IMG/VR virus record: IMGVR_UViG_3300044798_000674 | Coordinates: 1 to 20,833 of that record | Reading direction: 5' to 3' (one strand) | Length of the DNA stretch: 20,833 bases | Source of the DNA: a virus | Shown: positions 2,871 through 9,725 of the stretch, in pieces | How positions within the stretch are numbered: the first letter of the stretch is position 1 | How the letters are laid out: every line of letters begins with the position of its first letter | Program-made: the position numbers and the translations under genes | The notes under the pieces: model-generated | What the model was told of the DNA's origin: nothing | The model's input: only the letters and a program-made list of their open reading frames with translations | Database searches by the model: none

Positions 2871-3031
2871 GCCTCAACTTCGAATTCAAGACGCGCCCGG
2901 TCGAGGACGTCTGCGAGGTTGCAGGCTGCCGGAGGCCTGCGAACATCAGGGTCCTTGGGAAGTGGTTGTGCGACGAGCATTGGCGCGAGCACTGCCGAGA
3001 CCCGCCAACGTACCGGGCGGCGAGCCCATGA
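2867..3031 (+). CDS. 54-residue zinc-finger-like microprotein
   Basis: A very small frame of 54 codons bounded by ATGA overlaps at both ends. It encodes C16-x4-C21, C35-x2-H38, then H42 and C43 (VCEVAGCRRPANIRVLGKWLCDEH). This is a plausible treble-clef or CCCH zinc site of a kind common in small viral proteins. It fills what would otherwise be an unexplained gap, and both junctions are coupled, so it is very probably translated. Role unknown. Confidence 0.65.
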   Translation: MSLNFEFKTRPVEDVCEVAGCRRPANIRVLGKWLCDEHWREHCRDPPTYRAASP

Positions 3032-3378
3032 CGATCAAGGCGCGGAGGGACCGCGTGCGCGACTCGGCCATCACGATCTACGTCAAGACCCTTCGACGAA
3101 ACAGTCAAGCGTTCGGGGACATCAGGGACCAGGCCGAGAGGACCATCGAGTACTGCAAACAGAAGGGGTACTCCGAACCCAAGTTCGCCATCCGGGTCCT
3201 TGACGTCGTGACCAAGCAGCTCGACTTCATCGTCTGCAGGGAGGCCGAACTCAGGACTCTCCGGGGGGAACTCGCCCCGGATCAGACCTCGCTCGTAGAT
3301 GTTGCGCAGATTCCGGCCACGAACGATGGCCAAACAATGGCCACGACTGATGGCCAAGAGGGTGGTTCTGATGAGTGA
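3028..3378 (+). CDS. Helical hypothetical protein with repeat-encoded C-terminus
   Basis: A 116-residue protein starting at the ATG overlapping the previous stop. The first 75 residues are basic and helical (TIKARRDRVRDSAITIYVK, then DIRDQAERTIEYCKQKGY) and could bind DNA. The C-terminus reads PATNDGQTMATTDGQEGG, in which two ATxDGQ units are encoded by the palindromic DNA repeats at 3315 and 3339. Those repeats continue past the gene end, so the C-terminal peptide may be a by-product of a DNA-level signal. No family recognised. Confidence 0.65.
   Translation: MTIKARRDRVRDSAITIYVKTLRRNSQAFGDIRDQAERTIEYCKQKGYSEPKFAIRVLDVVTKQLDFIVCREAELRTLRGELAPDQTSLVDVAQIPATNDGQTMATTDGQEGGSDE
3315..3331. repeat. 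Palindromic repeat A
   Basis: GGCCACG-aac-GATGGCC: two imperfectly inverted 7-base arms around a 3-base spacer. It lies inside the 3' end of the upstream gene and recurs at 3339, 3529 and 3553. Arms are conserved at third codon positions while the spacer varies, suggesting DNA-level function. Confidence 0.7.
3339..3355. repeat. Palindromic repeat B
   Basis: GGCCACG-act-GATGGCC, exactly 24 bases after repeat A and with the same arms. Confidence 0.7.
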
Positions 3379-3592
3379 TTCGACCCTACTGGCTTCGTCC
3401 CTCTCTCTCTCTCTCTCTTCTCTGAGAATCTCAAGAAAGAAAGAAAGAAGAATGAAGAATAACCGTGGCCGTGGCCACGCGGTGGGCCACGGTTTCAGAG
3501 GCCTCTCACCTTTTTCAGGAAGCGAATCGGCCACGCTTGATGGCCGGAAAACGGCCACGGTTCGTGGCCACTTTAGCAGGATGGGATACTGA
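3371..3592 (+). CDS. Doubtful coupled small reading frame over the repeat region
   Basis: A 73-residue frame opens at an ATG overlapping the 3' end of the previous gene by eight bases and ends in a TGATG junction with the next start. The gene-like junctions favour translation. The product is low-complexity: a Ser/Leu run from the CT tract, then Arg/Lys, then ATLDG and ATVRG units from repeats C and D. That favours non-coding DNA that happens to stay open. Treat it as possible only. Confidence 0.25.
   Translation: MSDSTLLASSLSLSLSSLRISRKKERRMKNNRGRGHAVGHGFRGLSPFSGSESATLDGRKTATVRGHFSRMGY
3398..3459. repeat. Pyrimidine tract followed by purine tract
   Basis: A 26-base all-pyrimidine run (mostly CT dinucleotides, 3398-3423) is followed by TGAGAaTCTCA (3423-3433), a small inverted repeat. 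Then comes an almost pure A/G run built from AAAG units (to 3459). Such strand-asymmetric tracts unwind or form unusual structures easily. The tract sits between the two repeat pairs. Confidence 0.7.
3463..3492. repeat. Central inverted-repeat cluster
   Basis: CCGTGGCC (3463-3470) and its exact reverse complement GGCCACGG (3485-3492) flank a further perfect 10-base palindrome, CGTGGCCACG (3470-3479). It uses the same GGCCAC/GTGGCC words as repeats A-D and lies between the A/B and C/D pairs. Confidence 0.65.
3529..3545. repeat. Palindromic repeat C
   Basis: GGCCACG-ctt-GATGGCC, with the same arms as repeats A and B, 47 bases upstream of the ribbon-helix-helix gene start. Confidence 0.7.
3553..3569. 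repeat. Palindromic repeat D (perfect)
   Basis: GGCCACG-gtt-CGTGGCC, the only copy with perfectly inverted arms. It is 24 bases after repeat C, the same period as A to B, and ends 22 bases before the next gene start. Confidence 0.7.
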
Positions 3593-4170
3593 TGGTCGCT
3601 GTGGGAAGGATACACATCAGCGTGACGGAGGAGCATGCAGACTTGCTGGCCAGCATCGAGAAGAACTACCGGATCAAGCCGTCCGAGTTCTTCCGATTGA
3701 CCGTCGACTACATCATCGACAACAACACGGACCTGGAGCTGTGGGCGCACAGGGAACGCCTCAAGCGCATCGACAAGGAGCAAGCCCGAGTACAGGCGCG
3801 CATCACGGAGATCGAGACAGCTAGGCCCGTCTCTGCGACTCCTGAGGGGAAATTCGAGTTGCCTGCGCCCAGGAAGACGGTCATCACGCGCTCCGCGGAG
3901 GTGAGGATCGCCGACACCAACCATCTCGGAGGGACCGAACAGGAGAAGGGCACCTTCGTGCGTCTTGGCAAGTTGATCGGCGAGAGAGAGGCAAGTCCGA
4001 AGGCGAAGACCTGGTTTCAGGAGCACGCGAAGGAACATCCTCAGTGGCTCGAGGAGCTCCCAACGGGACATCTCTTGGCCATCGAGAAGGAGCTCGGTTG
4101 CAGCTTGCGAGTAGTATCTGAATTCAAGAGCAACGGATCCGCATCGCCGCTCGAGGAGGCTGCGAAGTGA
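3592..4170 (+). CDS. Ribbon-helix-helix DNA-binding protein
   Basis: A 192-residue protein. Residues 5-45 read as a ribbon-helix-helix fold: strand RIHISVTEEHADLLASIEK, then KPSEFFRLTVDYIIDNN as the second helix. These proteins bind short palindromes as dimers. A charged coiled-coil-like segment follows (residues 55-80), and then a C-terminal helical domain that may oligomerise. The start is in a TGATG junction with AGGATGGG upstream. The gene lies directly after palindromic repeats C and D, so autoregulation or origin binding at those sites is an attractive inference. The fold call is fairly secure; the target is not. Confidence 0.75.
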   Translation: MVAVGRIHISVTEEHADLLASIEKNYRIKPSEFFRLTVDYIIDNNTDLELWAHRERLKRIDKEQARVQARITEIETARPVSATPEGKFELPAPRKTVITRSAEVRIADTNHLGGTEQEKGTFVRLGKLIGEREASPKAKTWFQEHAKEHPQWLEELPTGHLLAIEKELGCSLRVVSEFKSNGSASPLEEAAK

Positions 4171-4607
4171 CGACTCACGAGTTCCGAGTGATGGGGGAGC
4201 CCGAGCCCAAGGGCAACATGAAGGGGTTCCCTCGAGGCCGGCATGTGATCATCACGGACGGCAACAAGAACCTCAAGGGATGGGAACAAGCCGTGCGCTA
4301 CGAGGCGCAGCGGTATGTCGAGGAGCACGGCCTGTCTTGCGCAGACGCGAAGACCACTGCGGTCGTTCTTCATGTCGAGTTCTCTTTTCAGAAGCCGAAG
4401 TCGACCGCGAAGTCCATCGTTGTGAAGACCACGCGCCCGGACCTCGACAAGCTCATACGTGCGATCGGGGACGCGCTCAAGGGCATCATATACGACGACG
4501 ACGGGCAGATCAACATGATAGTCGCGGAGAAGAAGTTCGCGCAGCCCGGCCAACAGGCAGGGGTTCTAATCAGATTCTGGGTCAAGCCGATCAGGGAGAC
4601 GCGGTGA
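4167..4607 (+). CDS. rusA: RusA-like Holliday junction resolvase
   Basis: A 146-residue protein, close to the usual 120-150 residues of the family. It has the RusA signature: RPDLDKLIRAIGDALKG (about 90-106) followed by IIYDDDGQI (107-115). D92, D94 and D110 or D111 are the expected metal-binding acidic residues. The N-terminal strand with EPEPKGNMK matches the family's substrate-binding segment. RusA enzymes cut four-way DNA junctions, in viruses often to clear branched DNA before packaging or during recombination. The GTG start lies in a GTGA overlap with the preceding gene. Confidence 0.9.
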   Translation: MTTHEFRVMGEPEPKGNMKGFPRGRHVIITDGNKNLKGWEQAVRYEAQRYVEEHGLSCADAKTTAVVLHVEFSFQKPKSTAKSIVVKTTRPDLDKLIRAIGDALKGIIYDDDGQINMIVAEKKFAQPGQQAGVLIRFWVKPIRETR

Positions 4608-4798
4608 ACAGGATGGGAAACGAGAAGGGAGAAGATCTGAAGGCACACCTTGGGCTCGTGATCAGGGGAGACATCTACGAGCTCCGGGACGTGGTCGACC
4701 ACCTCAACAAGGAGACCAAGAAGAGCCCGACCTTGGAGATCATCTACAAGAAGATCTCCGGGGAGAAGCTCTGGATCAAGGTGGGCGCGGAGGAGTGA
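4604..4798 (+). CDS. Small hypothetical protein
   Basis: A 64-residue protein starting at a GTG that overlaps the resolvase stop (GTGA). An ATG three codons in, at 4613, is an alternative. The sequence is a helix (GDIYELRDVVDHLNKETKK) followed by two strands (LEIIYKKI, LWIKVG). It is coupled to the resolvase, but I see no motif linking it to that activity. Confidence 0.6.
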   Translation: MNRMGNEKGEDLKAHLGLVIRGDIYELRDVVDHLNKETKKSPTLEIIYKKISGEKLWIKVGAEE

Positions 4799-5609: not shown

Positions 5610-6080
5610 ATGGAGAACGCCGTCTTGGTGCACAATAGCGAGGAGGCGCGCGCTTTCATACAGAAGTTCCAGGAGGACCTCGCAACCTTGGTCATCTCCC
5701 GCACCACTAACGGCGGTTGCTGCGGATTGAACGAACAGTCGATCATGCGCAGTCTTCTCCTGTGGAACGCGGGGTATCTCGAGGGCACGCGCAAAGGGAA
5801 CCTGGAAATCCTCGCGAGCATGGGGCGGCTTCAGCCGGGTATGGCGTTTTTGCTTGACCGCGAGATGCCCGACGAGATATACGACAAGTACACCGCGGGA
5901 TTCAATGAAGGGCTTACGCACACCGACGAGAAGCGAGCGAAAGCCGTCGCAACGTTCGAGCGGTTGTATCCCCTAACAACACCCGCGGCGGCCGTCGATA
6001 ACGCGGCTCGCCCGGCCCGGGATAAGAATCTATCGGTGGGCATGCCCACCGATCAACAGAAAAAGGAGGAAGTGAAATGA
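5610..6080 (+). CDS. Hypothetical protein upstream of ParB-like gene
   Basis: A 156-residue protein, mostly helical, with two tyrosine-glycine patterns (AGYLEGTRKGNLEIL and KYTAGFNEGLTH) and a Cys-Cys in GGCCGLNE. The last 20 residues (about 137-156) are encoded across the 22-base palindrome at 6032 and look disordered. It ends in an ATGA overlap with the ParB-like gene, so the two are probably made together. No family recognised. Confidence 0.65.
   Translation: MENAVLVHNSEEARAFIQKFQEDLATLVISRTTNGGCCGLNEQSIMRSLLLWNAGYLEGTRKGNLEILASMGRLQPGMAFLLDREMPDEIYDKYTAGFNEGLTHTDEKRAKAVATFERLYPLTTPAAAVDNAARPARDKNLSVGMPTDQQKKEEVK
6032..6053. promoter_or_regulatory. Perfect 22-base palindrome before the ParB-like gene
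   Basis: The half-site ATCGGTGGGCA is followed directly by its exact reverse complement, with no spacer and no mismatch. It ends 23 bases before the ParB-like start, inside the 3' end of the upstream gene. It could be a ParB or regulator binding site. In mRNA it could also fold into a strong hairpin just before the AAGGAGG ribosome-binding site. The palindrome is certain; its function is inferred. Confidence 0.65.
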
Positions 6081-7770: not shown

Positions 7771-8067
7771 ATGCCGAGCAAGACGATCGATTTCTTCTGC
7801 TACATAATCGCCAACTCGAGGGGCACCGTGCGCACGACCAAGTACAAACCGTCCTTGGGGCGCGACGAAGTCGCCATCCGGCTCGCGTTCAAGTTGCCCG
7901 AGGTCATGTTCGCGCGGCCCGTTGTGCAGGCACAGATCACGGTAAGCGAGGCGGCAGTAGCGCCCAAGGACATTGCGCCAGAAATCCTCATCAACACGGC
8001 TGCACTGATCGAGCAGCAGCTCGGCATCAAGGTGGAACTCGTTGTCGTGCCTCCCGAGGAGCAGTGA
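7771..8067 (+). CDS. Hypothetical protein
   Basis: A 98-residue protein with a strand-helix-strand look: KTIDFFCYIIANSRGTVRTTK, then FKLPEVMFARPVVQAQITVS, a helix (APEILINTAALIEQQLGI) and a final strand (KVELVVVPP). It begins four bases after the previous stop. The regular alternation suggests a small folded alpha/beta domain, but no family is recognised. Confidence 0.65.
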   Translation: MPSKTIDFFCYIIANSRGTVRTTKYKPSLGRDEVAIRLAFKLPEVMFARPVVQAQITVSEAAVAPKDIAPEILINTAALIEQQLGIKVELVVVPPEEQ

Positions 8068-9113: not shown

Positions 9114-9725
9114 ATGGTCAAGGCAACAGAGAAGCGCCCCAAGGATCGAGCAGGGTCAGTCAGAAACAGCAGGAAGCCCTGGGAACAACGAGACGGCGAG
9201 TCGCCCCAAGCCTTCGAAGCATTCTCCCTCTATCGCAGTCAAGGTGTCAAACGAAGTCATGTGAAGGTTGCGCATGAGTTAGGCAAGTCCTCCACGATCG
9301 TATCCCGGTGGTCCTCCCGACACGGATGGATCGACCGGGTCCGCGCCTACGACGCGGTGATCAGCAAGGAAGTCGTCGAGGATGAGAAGGACGCGATCGT
9401 CCGCATGAACCGGCGCCACATCAACGAATCACACAAGCTGCAGGAGCTCGTGCTGCAGCGCATCGGCAAGATCCGCCCGGAGGCCCTCAGCCCCACGGAC
9501 GTCGCCCGTTGGTTGGACATCGCGGTCAAGATCGAGCGCAAGTGCATGGGACTTGACGACAACGGGCCGATGGTCAACACCCAGGTCAATGTCGAAGTGG
9601 CGACAGAGGCCCACATCATTCTGGCGACCAAGCTCTACCCCAAAATCCTCACCATGTTGAGCGAGAAGCAGCGGGCTGAGTTGGACGCCTACAGAAAGCA
9701 ACTCGAGGAGGTGGCGTCGCATTGA
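9114..9725 (+). CDS. terS: Probable terminase small subunit
   Basis: A 203-residue protein. Residues about 22-80 match the helix-turn-helix start of many phage small terminases: PWEQRDGESPQAFEAFSLYR, then VKVAHELGKSSTIVSRWSSR and GWIDRVRAYDAV. A long helical region follows (about 85-150) and then a C-terminal part with strand and helix that could oligomerise. The small subunit recognises viral DNA and delivers it to the large subunit. GGAAAGGG lies upstream of the ATG. The large subunit is about 3.9 kb further on instead of adjacent, which is unusual. Confidence 0.7.
   Translation: MVKATEKRPKDRAGSVRNSRKPWEQRDGESPQAFEAFSLYRSQGVKRSHVKVAHELGKSSTIVSRWSSRHGWIDRVRAYDAVISKEVVEDEKDAIVRMNRRHINESHKLQELVLQRIGKIRPEALSPTDVARWLDIAVKIERKCMGLDDNGPMVNTQVNVEVATEAHIILATKLYPKILTMLSEKQRAELDAYRKQLEEVASH

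Follow-up and report, generated by a model that had tools for sequence, protein, structure and literature searches.

The 20,833-base window analyzed here, the whole of the viral record, contains at 3315-3569 an array of 17-bp repeats directly upstream of a gene for a ribbon-helix-helix (RHH)-like protein, and a related virus carries an array of the same plan, built from different words, at the same place. The array probably acts as a switch through which the gene controls itself, and it may also be a replication start. Judged from sequence, there is in our view an even chance that 3315-3569 is bound by the RHH-like protein of 3592-4170, which would shut down its own operon. An autoregulatory operator, which was absent from the original prediction, is at least as likely as the origin or partition site named there.

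The record is a complete IMG/VR entry classed as linear and is probably a genome fragment. It encodes a terminase, a portal protein, RusA and a ParB-like protein, and these genes indicate a tailed virus of bacteria or archaea. A search of genomes with the large terminase (TerL) for the host gave one weak, uninformative match to a cyanobacterial MAG (27%). A 98-aa protein at 7771-8067, to which no function was assigned, is 100% identical to its counterpart in the relative over 97 residues, above its neighbors. The features of the locus are as follows.

3028-3378, plus strand: upstream ORF of 116 aa, 70% identical overall to L005 4434-4799 of the relative, with a divergent tail
3315-3331, plus strand: repeat copy 1, GGCCACG-AAC-GATGGCC
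3339-3355, plus strand: repeat copy 2, GGCCACG-ACT-GATGGCC
3529-3545, plus strand: repeat copy 3, GGCCACG-CTT-GATGGCC, intergenic
3553-3569, plus strand: repeat copy 4, GGCCACG-GTT-CGTGGCC, a perfect 7-3-7 dyad, intergenic
3592-4170, plus strand: RHH-like protein of 192 aa, with an N-terminal strand-helix-helix motif, then a coiled coil (residues 48-77) and, at the C terminus, a helical domain; the proposed binder
4167-4607, plus strand: RusA-type Holliday junction resolvase (Pfam PF05866, E=6.3e-15), the next gene of the operon

The motif GGCCACG-N3-SRTGGCC occurs in these four exact copies and nowhere else in the record. The exact motif search thus confirmed the predicted positions and the spacing of exactly 24 bases within each pair, and the copies are confined to 3315-3569 instead of being spread evenly through the record. 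With up to two mismatches allowed on both strands, nine matches were found, eight of which were the four sites read twice; 1.28 were expected, and the maximum across 100 dinucleotide shuffles was six. The half-site GGCCAYS is present 12 times in the 280-bp locus, where 0.31 would be expected. The arms had been described as fixed and the repeats as palindromic, which is true only in part: the left arms are constant, but the right arms vary (GATGGCC in three copies, CGTGGCC in one), and copy 4 is fully symmetric whereas copies 1-3 pair at five of seven arm positions. Copies 1 and 2 lie within the unconserved C-terminal tail of the upstream ORF, where they encode the short peptide repeat PATNDGQ/MATTDGQ, and the argument from third codon positions holds for them but not for copies 3 and 4. 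Since the latter two are intergenic, a coding repeat does not account for the signal. As predicted, 22 bases separate the end of the last copy from the ATG at 3592.

Between the two repeat pairs lie the following elements.

3398-3423, plus strand: pyrimidine run of 26 nt, the longest in the record; its counterpart in the relative measures 29 nt
3433-3452, plus strand: purine run of 20 nt, which together with the pyrimidine run makes the two longest such runs in the record
3403-3462, no strand: 60-mer with the lowest stability in the record, as calculated from nearest-neighbor energy
3461-3494, no strand: central element AACCGTGGCC...GGGCCACGGTT, with four exact half-sites in the half-site map, the outer two diverging

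A run of 26 was obtained in none of 300 first-order Markov simulations. The central element contains the 10-base palindrome CGTGGCCACG at 3470-3479 and the inverted pair CCGTGGCC (3463-3470) and GGCCACGG (3485-3492), so that both runs, the pair and the palindrome were all found where the original prediction placed them.

Only one close relative was found, the 35,194-base IMG/VR contig IMGVR_UViG_3300044800_000226. It is circularly permuted with respect to the window and appears nearly complete, with about 0.8 kb missing as estimated from the alignment ends. Its proteins are 66% (RHH-like), 70% (upstream ORF), 68% (RusA) and 47% (ParB) identical to those of the window. Because the flanking proteins are 66-70% identical, the locus is homologous in the two viruses, and the relative's array falls between the same two genes, the upstream ORF and the RHH-like gene. 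The word there is CCGCACC-N3-GGTACAC, with copies at L005 4758, 4941 and 4966; a further, degenerate one is at 4709. When up to three mismatches were allowed across the relative's 35 kb, four matches were found, all in the array, and a reversed control pattern gave none. Two copies are 25 bases apart before the RHH-like start, and one or two are in the end of the upstream gene. Measured from the RHH-like ATG, the sites are at -292 (degenerate), -243, -60 and -35 in the relative and at -277, -253, -63 and -39 in the window; the relative's lone inverted half-site is at -101, against -128 to -107 for those of the window. The relative's longest pyrimidine run (29 nt) is likewise located between the outer site groups.

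The words themselves are not shared. The window's half-site words are absent from the relative's locus and the relative's are absent from the window's; the left half-sites have CAC in common at bases 4-6 and differ at the other bases. The 7-3-7 description fits the window's array securely but the relative's only tentatively, as the dyad there is weak (four of seven arm positions). In the relative, the two copies nearest the RHH-like gene form an exact tandem duplication of 25 bp, possibly a recent one. Architecture kept while words turned over in concert indicates an array that would be bound by a protein and co-evolve with its binder. One new word repeated at matching positions argues for a concerted change of site and binder instead of neutral drift, although the co-variation comes from one comparison, as a single relative carries the locus. 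The claim of a DNA-level, locus-specific signal is thus supported, with position and architecture conserved in the relative though every word changed. Relatives that kept the encoded peptides but not the DNA words had been named as evidence against such a signal, and this is not what was found: in the relative the coding tail and the words both changed, and the arrangement stayed.

Wider searches did not extend the comparison. The exact 24-bp double-site pattern had no match across IMG/VR, and no relative of the RHH-like protein was found among GenBank phages, PLSDB plasmids and GTDB genomes. More distant viruses identified by TerL, besides two relatives already found, were about 22% identical, and the RHH-like protein, upstream ORF, RusA and ParB were present at none of their loci. 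The more distant virus G002 is without the RHH-like protein and has an RHH-like coiled-coil ORF of its own, with no detectable relationship to that of the window. Directly before this ORF lies the 60-mer of lowest stability in all of G002 (L019 9078-9141, corresponding to G002 28078-28141), with an AT-rich imperfect inverted repeat. Another ORF of G002, at L019 12529-12824, contains a 33-bp tandem coding repeat of at least seven units, which encodes an 11-aa repeat (e.g., LEAYEKAKATA).

The original prediction named the adjacent RHH-like protein as a natural candidate binder, and the array adjoining its gene in both viruses fits this. Helices are predicted at residues 13-25, 30-43, 48-77 and 115-168. 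Residues 7-53 gave sub-threshold matches to DUF6290 and RelB, and a NikA-like match in the N-terminal stretch was also below threshold; all three are families which we take to be of RHH type. No curated RHH model matched above threshold. The structure model is of low confidence (pLDDT 62, with the first 10 residues below 50), and a structure search with it gave no fold match. On the sub-threshold matches, the motif and the predicted helices, the protein is a candidate RHH protein. The candidate N-terminal strand reads RIHISV in the window; its counterpart in the relative reads RIQVSL. Alternate strand residues face the DNA in known RHH proteins. If the same is true here, His8/Gln8 would be the only difference between the viruses among the positions expected to face DNA. 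The half-site and strand differences would then fit a one-residue change in specificity, as judged from this single comparison. The two viruses provide a natural pair of homologous, putative control arrays, alike in plan but not in words, each next to a candidate binder. These binders are two-thirds identical and their predicted DNA-facing strands differ at one position, which makes the pair a small, testable case of protein and site changing together.

We infer that the binder is the RHH-like protein, that it acts as a repressor and that looping may be involved. In the proposed mechanism, RHH dimers would dock on the 7-bp half-sites, and each 7-3-7 site would be filled by two dimers about one helical turn apart. 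Cooperative binding would join neighboring sites; both outer pairs, together with the inverted half-sites in the middle, would assemble into a single nucleoprotein complex that spans the soft pyrimidine/purine stretch and may be looped. Chiefly, the protein would in this way repress its own operon (RHH, RusA and the following early genes).

Autoregulation is favored for several reasons. First, the sites are directly upstream of the RHH-like gene in both viruses, with the final site 22 bp from the start codon in the window and 18 bp in the relative. Secondly, the signal is specific to this locus. Third, archaeal virus and plasmid RHH regulators commonly repress their own genes (PMC5569661; PMC9499535). 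A search for sigma-70-type promoters found none, and no clear archaeal TATA box was seen within the array. The conservation of the pyrimidine tract is less readily accommodated, as autorepression alone would not obviously need such a tract.

That tract bears on the serious rival to autoregulation, an iteron-type origin, which we consider possible though unlikely. The repeats would bind an initiator, either the RHH-like protein or one of the host helped by it, and the weak stretch would melt first. Tandem iterons are present, the least stable 60-mer of the record falls between the repeat pairs, and the relative has kept a pyrimidine tract as well. No Rep/initiator, helicase or polymerase was recognized in the ORFs scanned from the record or the nearly complete relative, which would leave room for such an origin. 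The lambda origin has four iterons beside an AT-rich region, a plan that the four iterons and weak DNA here resemble (PMC7466680). However, the repeats flank the weak stretch instead of standing on one side of it, and in the relative the array locus ranks no higher than seventh among the weakest places of the contig. Cumulative GC skew, which had been suggested as a check around 3.4 kb, has no minimum, turn or inflection at the locus in either record. Such an inflection is usual for bidirectional origins, not obligatory. In addition, we know of no RHH protein that acts as a replication initiator. A fuller version of this reading is a long shot: the array would be the origin of a tailed-virus lineage without a recognizable replication gene, the RHH-like protein would be the initiator or recruit the host's, the pyrimidine tract would open, and rapid co-evolution of iteron word and RHH strand would set incompatibility between related viruses. 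If the origin reading is true, it would provide a replication start for a virus group in which no replication gene has been recognized.

Autoregulation by the RHH-like protein has also to be weighed against other binders. It is quite unlikely that the ParB-like protein, or a DNA-binding protein of the host, is the binder and the RHH-like gene a mere neighbor. The features concerned lie outside the array.

6032-6053, no strand: ATCGGTGGGCATGCCCACCGAT, a perfect palindrome of 22 bp without a spacer, 23 bases upstream of the ParB-like start codon
6077-7468, plus strand: ParB-like protein (PF02195, E=2e-22; PF17762, E=7.2e-10)

ParB-type helix-turn-helix proteins do bind inverted repeats, and the array-bearing viruses both encode a ParB-like protein (47% identical), while the more distant G002 is without array and ParB. 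Yet in both viruses it is the RHH-like gene that stands next to the array, with ParB 2.5 kb away. The window's ParB has the palindrome ATCGGTGGGCATGCCCACCGAT of its own upstream, a candidate ParB site or operator, although it is absent from the matching place in the relative; a spacerless palindrome of 22 bp arose in two of 200 simulated sequences. A host protein as binder would leave the word differences between the viruses unexplained unless their hosts differ. The ParB-like proteins (L005 7427-8803 in the relative) are less alike than the products of neighboring genes (66-91% identical), and their similarity is concentrated in the N-terminal part.

A partition centromere, in which RHH dimers on a parC- or parS-like array would segregate a plasmid-like prophage, is very unlikely. 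Precedents are parC of plasmid R1 with the RHH protein ParR and parS of pSM19035 with the RHH protein omega. RHH-bound repeat clusters with words changing between related replicons are typical of ParR/parC, which has four 17-bp repeats that differ between families (PMC9426499), and a ParB-like gene is present in the record. Against this, no actin-like motor was matched among the ORFs scanned, a ParA-type ATPase was also not found, and no credible P-loop protein besides TerL was found in the record, which is probably a fragment, or in the nearly complete relative. The pSM19035 parS requires an uninterrupted run of four or more 7-bp repeats (PMC9499535), and the half-sites here are gapped. The relative carries an integrase and so probably integrates; a tRNA-Met-like sequence (L015 627-697, minus strand) adjoins its tyrosine integrase gene (L005 10-699), which suggests integration at a tRNA gene. 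With no motor NTPase (ParA, ParM) recognized in these scans and a ParB-like gene that has its own palindrome, the partition part of the original prediction is weak; its DNA-level array is supported, and an origin or partition function is not established. 

That there is no signal, only coding repeats and low-complexity drift, is scarcely credible: copies 1 and 2 do encode a peptide repeat, and (CT)n and similar microsatellites form readily, but copies 3 and 4 are non-coding and the arrangement is kept in the relative with different words. Two other candidates were rejected, an intrinsic terminator (the array matches on the minus strand, reading against the genes) and a packaging site, judged unlikely with the candidate small terminase gene (9114-9725) 5.5 kb off.

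Several known systems resemble the array in part. The lambda-type origin, with its O-protein iterons, likewise has four iterons close to weak DNA in the early region; here, the iterons are placed on both sides of the weak stretch and not within the gene for the candidate binder, and the ORFs scanned included no recognizable initiator or helicase loader. The parC of ParMRC plasmids, bound by the RHH protein ParR, likewise consists of repeat clusters upstream of the gene with words that diverge between related replicons, whereas here no motor was found and gapped near-palindromes replace direct repeats of one orientation. The WATCACW heptads of pSM19035 parS, bound by omega, are likewise 7-bp half-sites, and CAC is at positions 4-6 in all three words; here, the half-sites are 3 bp apart in 17-bp units spaced 24 bp apart, and no ParA was found. 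Lastly, the operators of SvtR and AvtR of archaeal viruses and of CopG and omega of plasmids likewise have an RHH-type gene beside repeated or inverted sites, and the cooperative spread from strong to weak sites that is common to them may, by analogy, also occur on the array. Compared with these operators, the candidate binder is larger, with a coiled coil and a C-terminal domain of no known type, and the array is composed of two plus two 17-bp sites around a conserved pyrimidine tract.
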